Positions 3,035 to 46,407 of a stretch of DNA of 64,000 bases are shown here, piece after piece. Under the pieces are notes generated by a model. The model made no database searches, was not told the origin of the DNA, and was given only the letters and a program-made list of their open reading frames with translations. A program made the translations under genes and the position numbers. Each line of letters opens with the position of its first letter. Position 1 is the first letter of the stretch. This stretch comes from Gemmatimonadota bacterium. Its GTDB lineage: Bacteria; Gemmatimonadota; Gemmatimonadetes; Gemmatimonadales; Gemmatimonadaceae. The DNA lies in assembly GCA_016182795.1 (NCBI GenBank), contig JACPFW010000018.1, positions 1 to 64,000 on the forward strand. Reading direction: 5' to 3'.

Positions 3035-3218
3035 GGGACGCTCCGCGATGGTGCGTGTGACGGGAACCGGGTAATCCGGGTGCAATTGAACCTCTGCGAA
3101 GTGTCGCCGCGGAGCCAGTCCCGCTGGCGCGGGGGCCCCGTCGTGATGAGCTTTCGCGCGTCGCACGCGTCGGTCCAGAGCGGTCTGGCGATGCCATCCT
3201 GATCAGGAGATCTGCCCT

Positions 3219-9773: not shown

Positions 9774-12700
9774 TCAGTCTCCCGTCAATGTATGCCGCAG
9801 CCCCGACGCCTGCTGCTCGGCGGTAATCTCCATCTCGCGCTGCTCCGACACAAACCGCCGGTGCACCCAGGCACCGAAGTCGTCGAGGTAGCTGTAGGCC
9901 ACCGGGACGACGATCAGCGTCAGCGCCGTGGAGGTGATGAGCCCGCCGATGACCGCGCGGGCCATCGGGGCGCGGAACTCGCCGCCCTCGCCGAGGGCGA
10001 GCGCGATGGGGAGCATGCCGGCGATCATCGCGAGCGTCGTCATCATGATCGGGCGCAGCCGCACCGCCCCCGCCTCGACGAGCGCGTTGAACCGGTGCAT
10101 CCCGCTGCGCCGCTTCTCGTTGGCGTTGTCCACGAGCAGAATGGCGTTCTTCGTCACGAGGCCCATCAGCATGATCACGCCGATCATCGACATCATGCTC
10201 AGGGTCGAACGCGTCAGCAGCAGCGCGAGCAGGACGCCCACGAGCGACAGCGGGAGCGACAGCATGATGGCCACCGGGTGCGTGAACGACTCGAACTGCG
10301 ACGCGAGAATGAGGAAGATGAGGATGACCGCGAGGACGATGGCCTCCACCACGTAACCGGCCGTCTCGGCGAGCATTTCCGTTTCACCGGCGAGGGCGAC
10401 CGAATAGCCCGGCGGCATCGCGATCTGCGCCGACTTCGCCTGAATGGCGGCCGACGCCTCGGAGAGCGAGTAGCCGGGTACCATGTTGCCGGAGATCGTG
10501 ACGACGCGCTCCAGGCGCGTCCGGTCAATCTGCGCCGGGGCGCTCGACACGGTGACCTGCGCGATGTCACCAAGCCGCGCATAGGTGACGCCGTTGGGGC
10601 CGGCCTTGGCCGTGGGCACGGGCATGGCGCTCACGTCGGCGACCGAGCGGCGCAGCTCGGGCGCGACCTGCAGGCGGACGTCGCGTTCCTCGCCGGTGGG
10701 ATCTTCCCACCGCGTGGCGACTTCACCGGCAAACAGGGGGCGCATCGTCGCCGAGATCGAGCCGATGTCGAGGCCGATCTGGTTGGCGGACTCGCGATTG
10801 ATGTCGACGCGCAGCTCGGGCTTGGGGTCGCCGAGTGACGACTTGACGTCCACAATGCCGGGGAGGTGTGCGATGGAGTCGGTGAGGATCGTCGAGAGGC
10901 GCTGGAGTTCGCCCATGTCGGGTCCGCGCAGTTCCACCTGCAGCGGCGCGCGGCTCATGCCCGACATGCCGGGCGCCTGCACGAAGGTGCGCACGCCGTA
11001 CAGCCGGCCGAGCCGCTCGCGGGCGACCATCATCAGTTCGTTCGCCTTGAGCGACCGTTCGGCGGGCGGCACGAGCCGGACGTAGATCTCGCCGGCGCGC
11101 ACGGTGCCGGTGGGGCCGGCGCCGACCGTGGTGTAGCTGTACGCGACCTCCGGCATCGCCCGGAGCGTCGCGATCACCTGCTCGGCCTTGGCCTGCGTCT
11201 GCGCCAGGCTCGACCCCTCCGGGGTCTCGAAGTTCACCTGGAACTCGCTGTTGTCGGACTGCGGCGCGAACTCGCCGCCGATGAACGGCACCAGCGCGAA
11301 CGCCGCCACCAGGCTCACCGCGGCGATGACCAGCGTCTGGCGCCGGTGCATCAGCGCCCACTCGATGATCGCCCGATAGCCCTGCGAAATGCGGTCGAAC
11401 CAGATGTTGAACCTGGCGATGGCGCGGGTCAGCGCGTTGCCGGCGCTCTCGCCGTGGTGGTGCGGATCGACGCCCCACCAGGCGCTGAGCATCGGCGTGA
11501 GCGTGAACGACACGAACAGCGAGACGAGCACGGCCCACGCCACGGTCAGCCCGAAGGCGTAGAAGAACCGCCCGATGATGCCGCCCATGAACGCCACCGG
11601 CACGAAGACGGCGACGATCGAGAACGTCGTCGCCATCACCGCGAGGATGATCTCGTGCGTGCCGTTGCGCGCCGCGGTGAAGTGATCCTCCTTCATCTCG
11701 CGGTGGCGGACGACGTTCTCGATGACGACGATCGCGTCGTCAATCAGAATGCCGATGGAGAGCGAGAGCGCCATCAGGGTGATGACGTTCACGGTGAACC
11801 CCATCGCCCGCATGATGATGAACGCCGAAATCACCGACACCGGCAGCGACATCGCCGTGATCGCCGTCGCCTTCCAGTCGTTCAGGAAGAGCATCACGAT
11901 GACGACCGTGAGGATGGCGCCGAGGATGAGCTCGAACAGCACATCCTCGACCGAGTGGCGGATGAGCACGGAGTTGTCGCGGACGACGCGCAGTTCCGTC
12001 TGGCCCGGCAGCACCTGACTCAGCTTCTCGAGCTGCAGCTTGATGCCGTCGGCCACCTGCACCGTGTTGGCCCCCGACACCTTGATCACGTCAATGCCGA
12101 TGCTGCGCTTGCCGTCGACAAGGGCGAGCGAACGCTCCTCCTCGGTGGCGTCCTCCACCCGCGCCACGTCGCCGAGGCGCACCGTCAGGCCGTTGCGGGT
12201 GGTGATGATGACGTCGTTGAACTGGGCAGGATCCTTGATGCGTCCGCTGACACGCACGAGCTGCTCGCGCGCACCGAGCAGCACGCGCCCGGCCGGCACG
12301 TCGAGGTTCTGCCGCTGCAACGCGGCGGCGATCTGCGGCACGGTGACACCCAGCGCTTCCATCCGCGCCGGCTGCAGGTAGACGCGCACCTCGCGCTTGA
12401 GACCACCCGAAATGCGCACCTCGCCGACGCCGCTCACCGACTCGAGGCGCCGACGGATGGTCTCGTCGGCGAGCGCCGTGAGCTTGGCGATGGGCAGGGT
12501 GGGGCTGGAGACGGCAATCGAGACGATCGGCATGGCGCCGAAATCGATCTTCTGCACCACCGGCGGCTCGACCCCTTCGGGGAGATTGCGGCGAATGGCG
12601 TCGACCTTGGAGCGCAGGTCCTGCGCCGCGAGGTCGACGTTGCGCGACAGCTGAAACTCGATGATGACCTGCGACACGCCTTCGAGCGAAACCGACGTGA

Positions 12701-40194: not shown

Positions 40195-40548
40195 TCAGCC
40201 GCGGTAGATCACCCCGGACGCTCCGGTCTCTGTGATCTCCACCGCGCTCAGGCCGGGCAAGGCGGCGCGCACGCGATCCCATATCCAGACGGCGAGATGT
40301 TCGCTCGTCGGGTTGTCGAGTCCCGGGACGTCGTTCAAGAACCGATGGTCCAGGGCGTCGTGCACCGGCGCGAACGCGCGCTGCACGTCGGCGAAGTCGA
40401 CCACAAAACCGGTGTTCGCGTCAACCGGTCCCGTCACCGTCAACCGCACGCAAAACGTGTGGCCGTGCACCCGTGCGCACGGATGATCGGCCGCGACGCC
40501 GGTGAGCCGCCGACCGGCGGCGATGGAGAACTCGCAGTACGCATCCAT
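40195..40548 (-). CDS. queD: 6-carboxy-tetrahydropterin synthase (QueD-like), variant zinc site
   Basis: A 117-residue protein aligning over its full length with E. coli QueD as I recall it: catalytic Cys in DHPCARVHGHTF, the two-His HGH zinc motif, LDHRFLNDVPGLDNPTSE and the final ETGASGVIYRG. QueD makes 6-carboxy-tetrahydropterin from dihydroneopterin triphosphate for queuosine. The first zinc ligand, His in AAHRL of E. coli, is Arg here (AAGRRL). This may be a subfamily trait or a change in metal binding. It follows queE by 50 bases; queE, queD and a damaged queC form one leftward set. Confidence 0.85.
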   Translation of the reverse strand: MDAYCEFSIAAGRRLTGVAADHPCARVHGHTFCVRLTVTGPVDANTGFVVDFADVQRAFAPVHDALDHRFLNDVPGLDNPTSEHLAVWIWDRVRAALPGLSAVEITETGASGVIYRG

Positions 40549-40558
40549 AATCCGAGTG

Positions 40559-40597
40559 CCGGGGAAGGGGCAGGGTGTGGTGCAGGGGAAGGGGATG
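40559..40597. repeat. Family C purine-rich repeat between queD and queE
   Basis: GGGGAAGGGGCAGGGTGTGG followed by TGCAGGGGAAGGGG fills the 50-base spacer. The core GTGTGGTGCAGGGG is identical to the one inside the lactate permease gene (32401-32460, minus strand), so the two loci share a dispersed element. Confidence 0.55.
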
Positions 40598-40598
40598 G

Positions 40599-41237
40599 TC
40601 AGCGAAGGCCGAGGAGCTTGTGCGTTTGCAGGCTCAAGCGCCATCGCGGGTGGGCCAGGCAATACGCGACCGCGGCGGCGGTGTTGGCCTCTCGATGCGG
40701 GCCGTCCATGGGCTGCAACAGGAGATGCTGAAAGCCGAGGTGTGAAAACTGCTCCGGCTCGGCGCCGGCCTGAGGATATACGAGCTTCAGTTCATCGCCC
40801 GCCCGCAGCTCGAGCGGAGCGCCCGCCTTTGGGCTCACGCAGATCCAGTCGAGCCCGCGCGGCGCCGCCATCGTGCCGTTCGACTCCACCGCCACGGTGA
40901 AGCCGCGCGCGTGCAGCGCGTCGACCGCGGCGTCGTCGAGCTGCAGCAATGGTTCACCACCCGTGCACACGACGTAGCGCGTTTCGGCCGTCTCGTGTGC
41001 CGTTGGCCACGCGGCCTCGACCGCGGCCGCGAGCTCCTGTGCCGTCCGGAACCGGCCGCCGTCGGCGCCGACGCCAAAGAAGTCGGTGTCGCAGAACGTG
41101 CAGACGGCGTTCGCCCGGTCTTCCTCGCGGCCGGACCACAGATTGCAGCCGGCAAAGCGGCAGAACACCGCCGGCCGGCCGGCGTGCATTCCTTCGCCCT
41201 GAAGCGTGAAGAAGATCTCTTTAACGGTATATGGCAT
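40599..41237 (-). CDS. queE: 7-carboxy-7-deazaguanine synthase (radical SAM)
   Basis: A 212-residue radical-SAM enzyme that converts 6-carboxy-tetrahydropterin to 7-carboxy-7-deazaguanine. The iron-sulfur motif is the CX14CX2C form known for QueE, at Cys31, Cys46 and Cys49 (CNLW ... CTFCDTDFFG). Also visible are the TLQGEGMHAGRP opening that binds substrate, CTGGEPLLQ and VAVESNGT. Length matches the family. It lies between queC (53 bases upstream) and queD. Confidence 0.93.
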   Translation of the reverse strand: MPYTVKEIFFTLQGEGMHAGRPAVFCRFAGCNLWSGREEDRANAVCTFCDTDFFGVGADGGRFRTAQELAAAVEAAWPTAHETAETRYVVCTGGEPLLQLDDAAVDALHARGFTVAVESNGTMAAPRGLDWICVSPKAGAPLELRAGDELKLVYPQAGAEPEQFSHLGFQHLLLQPMDGPHREANTAAAVAYCLAHPRWRLSLQTHKLLGLR

Positions 41238-41289
41238 TCAAGGACGCATGCGGGATTCGGGATTGACGACGGGGCCGGCGAACGATCGA

Positions 41290-41996
41290 CTAGCGGTAGC
41301 GCACGGGATCATGCATCCCGGCCTGCTCAAAACCGCGCAGCCTAAGCTGACAGGCATCGCAATGACCGCAGGCGGCGCCATCGGACGATGGATCATAGCA
41401 GCTGGTGGTCATCGCGTAGTCCACATCGAGCGTGCGACCCAGCGTGATGATCTCAGCTTTCGTCAGGTGCATCAGCGGCGTGTGCACCGTGAGACGCGTC
41501 CCCCGGCGCGCGTGGCGAGGTTGGCCATCTGCTCGAACGCCGTGATGAACTCGGGGCGGCAGTCGGGATATCCGCTGTAGTCGAGCGCGTTGACGCCGAT
41601 GAACACGTCGCGCGCGCCCAGCACTTCGGCCCACGCCATCGCGAACGACAGAAAGATGGTGTTGCGGGCGGGGACATACGTCACCGGAATCCCCTTGGCC
41701 ATCGCGTGCGCGTCGCGATCCTTGGGGACGGCGATGTCCGACGTCAGCGCCGAGCCGCCGAACTGACGGAGGTCGATGTCACAGACGGCATGCTTGGCCA
41801 CGTGCCAGTGCGCGGCCAGCGCGCGGGCGCGCTCGAGCTCGTGCTCGTGGCGCTGTCCGTACCGGAACGAGAGGGCGTGCACGGCATAGCCGGCGCGCAT
41901 CGCCCACGCGAGCACTGTCGCGGAGTCAAGCCCGCCGCTCAGCAGCAGCACGGCTGGCGTGCCGGGCGGCACGGTGGAAATCGCCGGGGAGGTCAC
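41290..41996 (-). pseudogene. queC: 7-cyano-7-deazaguanine synthase (QueC), frameshifted
   Basis: The first part (41996 to about 41505) has the PP-loop ATP motif SGGLDS at 20-25, [14 protein letters not shown] and [11 protein letters not shown]. The second part (to 41290) continues in another frame with [17 protein letters not shown] and the zinc site [10 protein letters not shown]. The switch is at a run of five C (+ strand 41500-41504); one extra base there would restore a single frame reading AGGTRLTVH. Both halves are conserved, so this is a recent mutation or a sequencing error. GTG at 41996 overlaps the aguA stop codon. If real, preQ0 synthesis would depend on another copy. Confidence 0.85.
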
Positions 41997-43024
41997 GCCG
42001 GCTGCTGTTGCGTGAGACAGTGCAGCGTGCCCAGCCCCCACACGAGATCCACCGCGTGCACGCCGACGACGCGCCGATCAGGCATCAGCTCGGCCAATTG
42101 GTTCAACGCGACGCGATCATTGGGATCGTTGAACGTCGGCACCAGCACGGTGCCGTTGGCGATGTAGAAGTTGGCGTAGCTGGCCGGCAGTCGCTGGCCG
42201 TCCATCATGACCGCGCGCGGATACGGCAACGTCACCACGCGCAGCGGCTCGCCGCGCGCGTCGCGGGCCGTCTGCAGGCGCTGCAGGTTGTCGACCGACC
42301 GCGCGTGGTTCTCATCGGCGGGATCCTCCTCGTGCGCAAGCACCACCACACCGGGGGCAACCCACCGCGCGATGTCGTCCACGTGGCCGTGGGTGTCGTC
42401 GCCAACGCATCCTTCGCCGAGCCAGATGGTCTTGGTGCAGCCGAGTTCGCTGGCGAAGAGTTGTTCGTAGTCCTCGCGGCCGAACCCGGGGTTGCGGATC
42501 TGGATATCGGAGAGCAGCCACTCTTCGGTGACCATGATCGTGCCGCGGCCGTCGGTCTCGATGCCGCCGCCCTCGAGCACCACCGGGCCGCTGCCGTCGG
42601 GGCGCATGGGCACGTGCCGCGGTCGGCCGGTGACCGCCGCGACGAACGCGCCGATGCTCGCATCGAACGCATAGTTGTCGTACTTCGCCCAGGCGTTGAA
42701 GCCCCAGTCGCACCAGACGAGCGCCCCATCCGGCCCGCGCACGCCGGTCGGCGCGCTGTCGCGCAGCCAGACGCGGTCGCAGGGCTTTACGTGCAGGCGC
42801 ACGGCCCCCGTGATGTGGTGCGCGGCCAGACACGCCTCGGCGTCTTCGCGCACGGTCTCATCGTGGCACAGGATCTCGACCTGCTCCGACTGCGCGAGGA
42901 GGCGGGCGATTTCGGCGTAGACCCACGGAATCGGCTCGAACTTGCCCGGCCAGTCGGGCTCGTAGTGCGGCCAGGCGATCCACGTGGCCGCGTGCGGCTC
43001 CCACTCAGCGGGAAAGCGGTTCAT
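41993..43024 (-). CDS. aguA: Agmatine deiminase family protein
   Basis: A 343-residue guanidino-modifying enzyme. Active-site features: [14 protein letters not shown] at the start, [33 protein letters not shown] with the catalytic His, and nucleophilic Cys336 in [13 protein letters not shown]. AguA converts agmatine to N-carbamoylputrescine. The upstream gene, three bases away, is the amidase for the next step, so putrescine synthesis is well supported; arginine decarboxylase is not in the window. Peptidyl-arginine deiminase of Porphyromonas type belongs to the same family but is secreted, and no signal is seen here. Confidence 0.92.
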
Positions 43025-43027
43025 GGC

Positions 43028-43972
43028 TCAGCGCTCGCGCGGGCCGATCCAACGGTTCAGTATCGGACCGTAGGCGTCGATGCGGCGATCGCGCAGGAAC
43101 GGCCAGTTGCGGCGCGTCTCCTCGATCCGCCGCGGGTCGCACGTCGCCAGCAGAATCGTCTCGTCGGCGCCCGCCTCGGCGATGGGGCGGCCGAACGGGT
43201 CGTAAACAAACGACTGGCCGAAAAACTCCAGGCCGTCAGTCCCCGCTTCCGCCTCGAAACCGGTGCGGTTGACGGCGGCGACGAAGACGCCGTTGGCGAT
43301 GGCGTGGGCGCGCTGGGCGGTGCGCCAGGCGGCGACCTGCGCCTCCCCCCACTCGGCCTTCTCCGCCGGATGCCACCCGATCGCCGTGGGATAGAGCAGT
43401 ATGTCGGCGCCGAGCAGGGCCGTGATCCGCGCCGCTTCTGGATACCACTGGTCCCAGCAGATGAGCACGCCGAGCGTGGCGTACCGCGTCTTCCAGACCA
43501 TGAAGCCGCCTGCCTCGCCGGCCGGGCCGCGTGAGCCGCTCGGCTGCACGGGGTCATGCGACTCGCCGGGCGCGAAGTAATACTTCTCCTCGAAGAGCGG
43601 ATCGTGCGGAATGTGCATCTTGCGGTAGACACCCTGCACCGTGCCGTCAGCGTCGATGACCACCGCCGAGTTCCGATATACGCCAGCGGCCTGACGCTCG
43701 TACATCGGCACCACGAGCACCACGTCGAGTTCGGCGGCGAGCGCGCTCAGGCGCTCGACGGTCGGGCCGGGGATCGGCTCGGCGAGATCGAAGCGCTCCG
43801 GGTCAAGCGTCTTGCAGAAATAGGGAGCGTCGAACAGCTCCTTCAGGCAGATCACCTGCGCGCCGCGCGCGTGGGCGTCGCGAATGCGGGCGACGGTGCG
43901 CTCCAGCGTCTCGGCCTTGGTGGCCGACACGCCGTCCTGGATGAGGGCGATGGTGAATGGGGCGACTGGCAT
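43028..43972 (-). CDS. aguB: N-carbamoylputrescine amidase (carbon-nitrogen hydrolase)
   Basis: A 314-residue nitrilase-superfamily enzyme with the triad Glu45 (LKELFD), Lys118 (YRKMHIPHD) and Cys172 (GVLICWDQWYPEAAR). It releases putrescine from N-carbamoylputrescine; SCGRPF-type neighbours such as EKYYFAPGE are typical of AguB. Start ATG at 43972 (MPVAPFTIALIQ) matches family N-termini; the frame extends seven codons upstream to 43993. First gene of the leftward set aguB-aguA-queC-queE-queD. The spacer upstream contains the terminator of the glycerate kinase gene. Confidence 0.93.
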   Translation of the reverse strand: MPVAPFTIALIQDGVSATKAETLERTVARIRDAHARGAQVICLKELFDAPYFCKTLDPERFDLAEPIPGPTVERLSALAAELDVVLVVPMYERQAAGVYRNSAVVIDADGTVQGVYRKMHIPHDPLFEEKYYFAPGESHDPVQPSGSRGPAGEAGGFMVWKTRYATLGVLICWDQWYPEAARITALLGADILLYPTAIGWHPAEKAEWGEAQVAAWRTAQRAHAIANGVFVAAVNRTGFEAEAGTDGLEFFGQSFVYDPFGRPIAEAGADETILLATCDPRRIEETRRNWPFLRDRRIDAYGPILNRWIGPRER

Positions 43973-44025
43973 ACGGCGCAATTTCACCCGCATCGAGAGC
44001 GCGCGCCACCGGCGCGCGGAAAAGA

Positions 44026-44059
44026 GCGCGGCGCGGAACGCATGCGTCCCGCGCCGCGC
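44026..44059 (-). terminator. Intrinsic terminator of the glycerate kinase gene
   Basis: A 16-base-pair stem with one mismatch closes on a very small loop (44026-44041 with 44044-44059). On the minus strand it is followed by CTCTTTTCC. It lies 16 bases beyond the glycerate 2-kinase stop codon. A second small stem (GCGCGCC/GGCGCGC, 44001-44017) follows. Confidence 0.75.
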
Positions 44060-44074
44060 CCCGACTCCGCTCCG

Positions 44075-45415
44075 CTACATGCGTACCGCGATCACGATGT
44101 CGCCGACGTTCGTGCCGGTCATCCCCGTCTTGAGCAGGGCGCCGGCCAGATGCAGCGCCTCGTAGCTGTCGTGCTTGGCAAGCGCGCGAGACGGATCGAT
44201 GCCGGACTCCATGATGCGCGCCGCCGTGCCGCCATCCACTATGGCGCCCGCGGCATCGGTTGGGCCGTCCCGGCCGTCGGTGCCCGCGGCGAGCAGCGTG
44301 ATGCCGCTCGCTCCGCTGCCGGCCTGCGACAGGCAGACCGCCGCGGCGAGCATCATCTCTTGGCAGCGCCCGCCGGCCGACGGTTCGGTGCTCAGCGTCA
44401 CCGTGGTTTCGCCGCCCCAGAGCGCGACGCCGCCGCGCGGCAGGGCCATGGCGGCCGCCGCGATGCGCGCCCCAGCGCTCGACGCTTCGCCGTACAGCGG
44501 CTCGCTGACGATGACGACGGGGTCGAAACCGAGCACGCGGGCCCGCAGCGCGCCGGCATCGAGCGCACCGCCGTTACCCTGAACCGCCGGGACGCCCGCG
44601 AACAGGAAGGCCGGCGAGTTCGACTGAGGTGACTCCAGCCGGTCCCCGCGCATGACGTCGTCGAGATAGTGTAGGAGTGGAGGCGGTACCTGGTCGGCGA
44701 GCCCCGTTTCGTCGAGGAGCAGGCGCACGTCCACGGCGGTGGAGGGATCCGGCACGCACGGCCCGGACGCGATCTGAGCCAGATTGTCGCCGATCACGTC
44801 AGAGAGCACGATCAGCTCGATTCGCGCCGGCGCCAACTGGGCCGCCAACCGCCCGGCGCCCCACCGCAGGAACCGCTTCCGAATGGCGTTGACGCGACCG
44901 ATGTCGAGCCCTGAGCGCAGCAGCACGTCGCAGAGGGTGATCAGGTCGGCCTGCTGGATGCCGTCGACCGGAGCCGCCACCAGACTCGACGCCCCGCCCG
45001 ACAGCAGCACGAATACGCGCTCGCCCGCGGGCACGCGCTCGCAGAGCGCGCCGAGCGCGTCGGCGGCGGCAAAGGAGGCGGCGCCAGGAATCGGATGATC
45101 GCCGACAATCGCGGTTATCGCCGGGTGCGGCGTGTCCGACACGCTGGGCCCGATAATGAGACCGCCGGCGATCGGGGCGTTCCGTTCCTTCATCTCGTGC
45201 ACGGCGGCGCGCGCCATCGTCAGCGCCGCCTTGCCGAGCGCGATGATCCAGCTCGGCCGGACGTCGGCTCGATCGGATGGGAGCCGCAACCGCACCGCGC
45301 GCGCCGTAAAGGCGGTCGGGTCGGCGGCGATCAACGACGCCGCGAAGAGGTCGCGCACGGTGACGCTGCCCGTGCGGGCTGAGGGGATCGACGTGCGCGC
45401 CATGGCAATCTGCAT
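44075..45415 (-). CDS. Glycerate 2-kinase (MOFRL/DUF4147 family)
   Basis: A 446-residue kinase of the GckA/TtuD type that phosphorylates D-glycerate to 2-phosphoglycerate. Visible blocks: IALGKAALTMARAA, GGLIIGPSVSD, VLLSGGASSLVAAP, IRKRFLRWGAGRLA, VLSDVIGDNLAQIASGP and the C-terminal MOFRL part LAAGTDGRDGPTDAAGA. ATG at 45415 is preceded by a purine-rich AGGGAAGGGG. An internal ATG at 45403 is possible. It appears monocistronic, bounded by an intrinsic terminator. The role would be glyoxylate or serine-derived glycerate use. Confidence 0.9.
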   Translation of the reverse strand: MQIAMARTSIPSARTGSVTVRDLFAASLIAADPTAFTARAVRLRLPSDRADVRPSWIIALGKAALTMARAAVHEMKERNAPIAGGLIIGPSVSDTPHPAITAIVGDHPIPGAASFAAADALGALCERVPAGERVFVLLSGGASSLVAAPVDGIQQADLITLCDVLLRSGLDIGRVNAIRKRFLRWGAGRLAAQLAPARIELIVLSDVIGDNLAQIASGPCVPDPSTAVDVRLLLDETGLADQVPPPLLHYLDDVMRGDRLESPQSNSPAFLFAGVPAVQGNGGALDAGALRARVLGFDPVVIVSEPLYGEASSAGARIAAAAMALPRGGVALWGGETTVTLSTEPSAGGRCQEMMLAAAVCLSQAGSGASGITLLAAGTDGRDGPTDAAGAIVDGGTAARIMESGIDPSRALAKHDSYEALHLAGALLKTGMTGTNVGDIVIAVRM

Positions 45416-45539
45416 ACCCCTTCCCTGATGTCGCGGATCACTACACGCTCCCGACGCGTGGCCCTCTGCCGGCGGTGCGCTGGAGACGCGTACCATCGCA
45501 GGCGATCGTCAGAATGCCGTCACTCGCCGACGCAAAGCG

Positions 45540-45621: not shown

Positions 45622-46203
45622 CTACTTGCCTTCCTTCGAGACCCGGTCGACCGCCGAGTCGAGCTGCGCGTAGCCCTCCGCGGAGAGCGCGGAAAACGGC
45701 CGAAACACTTGTGCGATCTTGCCTGTGGGCCCGACGACGAACACCACCCGCTTGTAGAACTTCTTCATCGGTCCGATGCCGGTGCCGGTCGTGGCATACT
45801 TCTCCGCAATCTCGCCAGACGTGTCGCTGGCGAAGAGCACGGGGAAGTTGGCCTCCTTGGCCCACGCCGCCAGCTCGTCGGCGCCGTCGGAGCTGATGGA
45901 GATGGCGACCACACCCTTGCCGCCGTTGAAGATCGTGGCGTACTGATCCCGGTACGCCTCATGTTGGACCGTTCAGCCCTTGGTCCGCGCCTTGGGGAAG
46001 AACGAGATGACGACGGTCTGTCCGCGGAAGTCGGCGAGGCGCAGGGCCTTCTCCATCACGCCGGCCTTGGACGCGCCGGGGAGGGAGAAGTCGGGCGCCA
46101 TATCGCCAACCTGGGGACCGTCACTCTGGGCCCACGCGCGCGTTGCCGCGAGCCCGAGCAGGGCGACGGCGAGCACCGAGAGCGAGACGGCTCGAAACAC
46201 CAT
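45622..46203 (-). CDS. Secreted peroxiredoxin, candidate selenoprotein (in-frame TGA at catalytic position 77)
   Basis: A 193-residue AhpC/TSA/BCP-type peroxidase with a signal peptide (VSLSVLAVALLGLAATRAWA). The frame meets TGA at 45975-45973, codon 77, and continues without another stop to 45622. The surrounding residues are P70-KAR-T74-KG-(TGA)-TVQHEAYRD, so TGA replaces the peroxidatic Cys of the universal PxxxTxxC motif. Downstream sequence is fully conserved in type (VVAISISSDG, FPVLFASDTSGEIAEKYA, RVVFVVGPTGKIAQVFR). No other Cys is present, so residue 77 would be the only redox centre. A 7-bp hairpin 14 bases after TGA may be a SECIS. Selenocysteine insertion is the favoured reading; a nonsense mutation or a base error is the alternative. 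A GGAG Shine-Dalgarno precedes the ATG. Confidence 0.8.
45937..45958 (-). promoter_or_regulatory. Candidate bacterial SECIS hairpin
   Basis: In the mRNA, GGCGUAC (from 45958) pairs perfectly with GUACGCC (to 45937) around an eight-base loop CGGGAUCA. The stem begins 14 bases and the loop 21 bases after the UGA. Bacterial SECIS elements are coding-region hairpins at about this distance with a G early in the loop, which is G here at loop position 2. The hairpin could also be chance, as GC-rich coding sequence folds readily. Confidence 0.55.
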
Positions 46204-46407
46204 CGGGGGGACTCCTCTGGTGAAGGACTGCGACGGGGACGACCTTGTTATCTAGTGCCCGCGCACCGCTTCCGGCAACCCACCAGATGGCGGCTCGCCG
46301 CGCCGCGGCTGGTGTACAAGGGTGGCCAGCGAACGATTGAAGCGTCTAGCGGGGTCTAACAGACGCGATGCCGAACTCGTAGAACAACTGATGCCCCCGA
46401 CAGCGCG

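Follow-up and report, generated by a model that had tools for sequence, protein, structure and literature searches.

The first selenocysteine (Sec) peroxiredoxin enzyme is reportedly that of Eubacterium acidaminophilum, and PprX of Caulobacter crescentus is a Cys enzyme. Peroxides in the envelope of C. crescentus are scavenged along a route that runs from ScsB through TlpA to PprX (PMC5403849). Sec-peroxiredoxins are a long-known selenoprotein family (PMC13188914, PMC1794560), and their PxxxTxxU motif has been described as highly conserved (PMC13188914). The gene reported here lies in a window of 64,000 nucleotides, the whole stretch of DNA that was analysed. With bacterial Sec-peroxiredoxins (TxxU; PF00578) it shares the AhpC-TSA domain, a predicted peroxidatic Sec in the TxxU motif and a SECIS hairpin just past the UGA. 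It appears to differ from them in that its product is probably exported, has no Cys in its mature form and scores 35.3 bits against a cut-off of 270 for the PrxU model NF040737 (thioredoxin-dependent peroxiredoxin equivalog), and in that half of the Sec forms among its relatives lack the motif proline. PrxQ/BCP-type thiol peroxidases are its best solved-structure neighbours by sequence and fold. In contrast to these, the window protein has Sec for Cys, a predicted signal peptide and no second Cys, and its score against NF006960 (PRK09437), its best NCBIfam match, falls below the cut-off (75.8 versus 140 bits). By analogy, the protein may work like the ScsB-TlpA-PprX system, since genes for exported peroxiredoxins, TlpA-type and DsbD-type proteins stand side by side in 17 of 39 related loci, though not in the window itself. 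Unlike in that system, the carrier would be a short protein of CcdA type (about 240 residues), and the likeness to PprX is one of description.

The coding sequence occupies positions 45622..46203 of the minus strand, from an ATG at 46203-46201 to a stop at 45624-45622, and comprises 193 codons. A Shine-Dalgarno-like AGGAG (46212..46216, minus strand), a 5-base match in the scoring used for start choice, lies 8 nt upstream of the ATG. Translated with TGA as U, the gene specifies a probably exported seleno-peroxiredoxin of 193 residues with Sec at position 77. The single internal stop is the TGA of codon 77 (45973..45975, minus strand), in the local context FFPKARTKG-(TGA)-TVQHEAYRDQY; there is no Cys codon elsewhere in the frame, and in the alignment 31 Cys homologues have their peroxidatic Cys at position 77. 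The initial annotation, made without reference to strand, had described one frame interrupted solely by this TGA, placed exactly at the C of PxxxTxxC, with a downstream part still recognisable as peroxiredoxin and no other Cys in the protein. All of this holds on the minus strand, where the AhpC-TSA domain spans the TGA and the codons beyond it are under purifying selection. The plus-strand frame over the same interval is also open, yet it does not encode a peroxiredoxin. In a table-11 list of open reading frames of at least 80 residues the gene is present only as a 96-residue downstream piece. Since a standard-code reading cuts the gene in this way, annotations within this common phylum may get the enzyme wrong in many genomes. 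We estimate at roughly 80% the probability that this is a true selenoprotein gene whose product is an exported one-Sec peroxiredoxin, reduced by a partner of the TlpA/CcdA type.

The selenocysteine reading offered by the initial annotation is supported by close homologues, as all 112 homologous Gemmatimonadota genes read carry either TGA (81) or a Cys codon (28 TGC, 3 TGT) at this site and nothing else, and by the presence of the sel machinery described below. A close match was found in nine of the ten other genomes of the genus (G127 gave a weak match only), and the TGA stands at the same codon in all nine, so it is not there by chance. Codon changes past the TGA are mostly in the third position (34-46 third-position versus 9-17 first-position differences over nine comparisons), and the downstream part is therefore translated. 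Of 179 genomes in the same family, 178 gave a match of some kind to the peroxiredoxin. Among the matches listed, 100 of these genomes have a TGA row and 31 have stop-free rows only, counts that leave aside the 48 genomes without a listed row and in which stop-free rows are confirmed as Cys for the fetched loci only. Five other families (f2, f3, f5, f7 and f9) have TGA rows as well, in at least 49 genomes of the phylum sample among the matches listed. Tandem copies consist of a Sec and a Cys gene in nine loci and of two Cys genes in four (L032, L033, L035 and L038). In L095 (genome G032) two Sec peroxiredoxins lie in tandem (at 3214 and 3817), where several other genomes of its genus group, g7, have a Sec/Cys pair instead. 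The related Sec and Cys enzymes, with nine Sec/Cys pairs each within a single genome, form a natural set for testing why selenium is kept and what role the motif proline plays. In a plasmid collection, the nearest of the best 20 of 96 matching records is a Cys form from Gemmatirosa kalamazoonensis (43% identity), the other matches listed being below 36% identity. A scan of contigs with six short peptides returned 11 loci, ten labelled Gemmatimonadetes, Gemmatimonadaceae or Gemmatimonas and one labelled 'bacterium'.

A predicted bacterial SECIS hairpin (45937..45958, minus strand) begins 14 nt past the UGA and consists of the stem GGCGUAC/GUACGCC closed by the loop CGGGAUCA. Bacterial SECIS elements are said in the Fig. 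2 legend of PMC13188914 to have a loop of 3-9 nt, a stem of 4-16 bp, a UGA-to-loop spacing of 16-37 nt and a minimum free energy of at most -7.5, and the same source gives G in the first two loop positions, with G[G/U] as the published rule. The window hairpin falls within all of these bounds, with an 8-nt loop, 7 bp, a spacing of 21 nt and -10.3 kcal/mol; its loop has G at position 2, followed by another G. A single hairpin sequence is weak evidence when taken alone, because random synonymous recoding of the peptide creates a six-pair stem in 38% of draws, and a stem together with G[G/U] in 19%. Comparison of Sec with Cys genes shows all six inner pairs preserved in 80 of the 81 TGA genes versus 1 of the 31 Cys genes, the exceptions being L087 (TGA, one broken pair) and L096 (Cys, intact stem). 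The loops of the 81 Sec genes are CGTGATCA (69 genes), CGGGATCA (11) and CGTGACCA (1). Their loop Arg codon is always CGT (70) or CGG (11), whereas 25 of the 31 Cys genes use CGC, and the Asp codon is GAT in 80/81 Sec versus 9/31 Cys genes. Genome-wide codon use is not the cause of this difference, because tandem copies within one genome also differ: across the nine genomes with adjacent Sec and Cys copies, the stem is intact in 9/9 Sec and 0/9 Cys genes, and the loop Arg codon is CGT in 9/9 and 2/9, respectively. Two pairs have changed on both sides, in 12 cells where shuffling gave 2.1 on average and none of 500 shuffles came as high; covariation by further pair types was no better than in shuffles, 221 of the 500 being as high. 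Four of the seven pairs are constant, and with so little variation in the core the covariation is modest. Even when up to two mismatches are allowed, the 20-nt core occurs only once in the window. Searched against the whole of its own genome, the SECIS model recovered the peroxiredoxin site (E 5.9e-14) and no second convincing one, the single further match having an E of 0.48; the core had no matches in viral contigs.

The genome that carries the window (G000; 3.13 Mb in 50 contigs, 93% complete) encodes the full complement that the initial annotation had proposed looking for. Weak matches to selB, selD and tRNA-Sec appeared in all 14 control genomes, hence only matches above curated cut-offs were counted. 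On that basis G000 has selA (543 bits), selB (311 bits over profile positions 1-338 of 581, within a 671-residue frame), selD (367 bits) and tRNA-Sec (74 bits), the last also called by ARAGORN as tRNA-SeC with anticodon tca. The selD gene (9891-10817) lies about 100 bases before the tRNA-Sec gene (10921-11013) on contig C16 (G000:C16:9891-11013; L016, L007) and has an in-frame TGA of its own, RCAG(TGA)ASKM.

Across the family, tRNA-Sec was found in 104 of 179 genomes, including 91 of the 100 with a listed TGA row versus 2 of the 31 with stop-free rows only (Fisher p 6e-19, with genomes treated as independent and relatedness ignored). The nine TGA genomes without a tRNA-Sec match stayed the same when the search was repeated over a few genomes. 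Seven of them have selA above cut-off, G081 has a selA fragment at a contig edge, and G124 (78% complete) gave neither a tRNA-Sec nor a selA match. Conversely, selA is above cut-off in 3 of the 31 stop-free-only genomes (G027, G028 and G093) and in none of the four of these that are single contigs (G043, G044, G045 and G149). Independent pairs on the tree, drawn from 82 of 112 rows (family rows without the plasmid row L137 and without Cys copies from genomes that also have a Sec copy), had Sec and tRNA-Sec changing the same way in 5.4, the opposite way in 0.0 and without difference in 1.6 of 7 (averages; median p 0.06). Outside the family, tRNA-Sec is present in 16 of the 18 TGA genomes examined; it was not found in G282 (a single contig, 93% complete) or G283, both of which have selA. 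L087, the one TGA gene whose inner SECIS stem is broken at a pair, comes from G282, where either the tRNA-Sec may be divergent or the Sec trait may be decaying. Of two Cys genomes examined outside the family, G206 lacks selA and tRNA-Sec and G183 has both, presumably keeping the Sec trait for something else. Genomes in which selA accompanies only Cys forms among the copies seen are thus G183, G093, G028 and G027, the first three also with tRNA-Sec; in these another selenoprotein may keep the Sec trait, or the trait may be in the course of being lost.

A tree of the 112 rows, built with the active-site residue masked, requires ten changes between Sec and Cys, eight of them forced by well-supported branches, and being unrooted does not distinguish gain from loss of Sec. 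One way to read these changes is that the Sec form was gained many times, convergently, from Cys ancestors instead of arising once and reverting repeatedly. The number of changes would allow this, and Table 1 of PMC1794560 (2006) lists five Cys-to-Sec and no Sec-to-Cys events for peroxiredoxins. We nevertheless regard it as unlikely. Sec genes from six families have almost the same loop and inner stem (GCGTACCGKGATCAGTACGC), which is hardly expected from independent origins and argues for a single Sec origin with repeated return to Cys. Moreover, selA is absent from 28 of the 31 stop-free-only genomes of the family, as would follow if the trait had been lost. The lone Cys gene with an intact six-pair stem, L096 (loop CGCGACAA), comes from G206, which has neither selA nor tRNA-Sec, and its stem is possibly the relic of a former Sec gene, although such a stem also arises by chance. 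If the rooting implied by a single origin holds, this gene set adds the Sec-to-Cys direction to the Cys-to-Sec events tabulated in PMC1794560.

With Sec entered as Cys, the window protein matches Pfam AhpC-TSA (E 4e-24, residues 32-165, spanning the TGA) and Redoxin (E 1.5e-16), both above cut-offs. An AlphaFold2 model (mean pLDDT 91, pTM 0.83) has BCP/PrxQ and Prx1 as its nearest solved folds in Foldseek, with E down to 2.6e-14, and the first 50 matches to this predicted structure are all peroxiredoxins. Translation and homologue alignment place the active-site motif P-KAR-T-KG-U-T at residues 70-78 (45970..45996, minus strand). The protein has the full PxxxT/SxxC(U) plus Arg motif, formed by P70, T74, U77 and R152. 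The Arg152 codon (45748..45750, minus strand) is invariant in a 42-row alignment and is placed like the peroxiredoxin active-site Arg, with which we equate it, and whose role we assume, from general knowledge. All 81 Sec rows have Thr or Ser at -3 (Thr 78, Ser 3) and Gly at -1. The PxxxTxxC proline is kept in 31/31 Cys genes, whereas 41/81 Sec genes have another residue in its place (F 23, Y 13, I 2, V 2, S 1). Its state changes six times on the tree, and of 8 independent pairs, on average, 2.8 had proline loss accompanying Sec, 0.0 had the opposite and 5.2 had no difference, too few for significance. We infer from this pattern that Sec may make the motif proline dispensable.

Because the proline is missing from 41 of the 81 Sec forms and the window protein lies below the cut-offs of all seven NCBIfam models listed, the active site is non-standard in half of the family. 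The exported Sec protein could on these grounds be something other than mainly a peroxidase, either a selenenyl/thiol oxidoreductase or an enzyme that reduces some other oxidant, such as an organic, sulfur, selenium or metalloid species. We consider this improbable in view of the retained Thr or Ser, the invariant Arg152 and the uniformly peroxiredoxin-like matches of the modelled fold, the more so as the window protein itself keeps the full PxxxTxxU.

The protein is probably exported, because signal-peptide-like N-termini are conserved among its relatives. Residues 1-25 (MVFRAVSLSVLAVALLGLAATRAWA; 46129..46203, minus strand) form a predicted signal peptide with a hydrophobic segment and A-x-A before Q26, where the cut would fall, and A25 and Q26 are among the columns at least 90% conserved in the 42-row alignment. 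Start codons and signal peptides were assigned by our own scoring (start choice and hydropathy), and a crude hydropathy test of this kind was passed by 80/81 Sec and 30/31 Cys proteins. The expectation of the initial annotation that an exported form would be unusual in this kind of genome was thus mistaken, given also the TGA copies in five other families. Outside the active site, Cys is absent from 67 of the 81 Sec proteins; it lies 60-74 residues before Sec, in the signal peptide, in 12 and in the C-terminal tail in 2. Lacking a second Cys, the mature protein has no means of internal resolution and must therefore be reduced by a partner.

Such a partner may be encoded nearby in many relatives. 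Convergent genes of TlpA and CcdA type lie within 2.5 kb of the peroxiredoxin in 17 of the 39 loci with at least 1.9 kb of downstream sequence and are absent from the other 22; both query proteins came from loci that have the pair. It adjoins 17 of 30 Sec loci versus 0 of 9 Cys loci, relatedness being ignored. Two further loci, L074 and L080, have a CcdA match but too little downstream sequence to enter this count. No match to the pair was found anywhere in the window, and two pairs occur elsewhere in the same genome (C45 and C32). The TlpA-CcdA pair is likely to be the electron supply of the peroxiredoxin. The proposed sequence of events begins with the SECIS behind the UGA, which would let SelB and tRNA-Sec(UCA) insert selenocysteine at codon 77. 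The N-terminal signal peptide would then take the seleno-peroxiredoxin out of the cytoplasm. Once outside, it would most likely act as a one-Sec peroxiredoxin, its selenolate attacking H2O2 or an organic peroxide and turning into a selenenic acid. As the mature protein has no Cys, the selenenic acid would be reduced by a partner, probably an exported TlpA-type thioredoxin kept reduced by a membrane protein of the CcdA/DsbD type. The location of Sec enzymes outside the cytoplasm also prompts the question of their reduction in that compartment.

That the TGA is a genuine stop or stems from a sequencing error or from mutation in a pseudogene, leaving a dead gene or a 76-residue fragment, gains a little from the 50-contig assembly and from a window gene, queC, that is split over two frames, so that errors or decay do occur; it is nonetheless rejected as extremely improbable, because homologues have TGA at the same codon (81 of 112 genes, with Cys in the other 31), the downstream part is under purifying selection, the SECIS is conserved and the sel machinery is complete. 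Insertion of Cys or Trp at the UGA, through a different tRNA or general read-through, is rejected with the same confidence, since tRNA-Sec(UCA), selA, selB and selD are present, UGA use tracks tRNA-Sec and selA over 131 family genomes, and the UGA-linked SECIS is conserved in Sec and not in Cys genes.

Extending the selenoprotein reading from this gene to the phylum, we tentatively propose, at slightly less than even odds, an extracytoplasmic one-Sec peroxide defence fed by CcdA-TlpA, which would go back to the common ancestor together with a single SECIS and in which Cys would have replaced Sec on several occasions in the course of losing the Sec trait. Sec would in this proposal render dispensable a proline long taken as universal, and the lineages that returned to Cys carry the proline. 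A literature search by titles and the beginnings of abstracts, with supplements, preprints and most subscription papers outside its scope, returned, among the papers listed, no exported bacterial Sec-peroxiredoxin and no seleno-peroxiredoxin from Gemmatimonadota, and the accessible part of PMC8318568 does not mention peroxiredoxin. An exported Sec-peroxiredoxin spread over six families of one phylum is apparently undescribed, and the at least eight Sec/Cys switches, the convergent TlpA-CcdA pair and the loss of the proline in Sec forms only are likewise new as far as searched.

Elsewhere in the window, a minus-strand run at 40195-45496 comprises genes whose translations resemble queD, queE, queC, agmatine deiminase, N-carbamoylputrescine amidase and glycerate kinase. 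The queuosine-synthesis gene queC (41290-42041, minus strand) has profile positions 2-147 and 146-209 in different frames, a split that reflects either an assembly error or recent decay.
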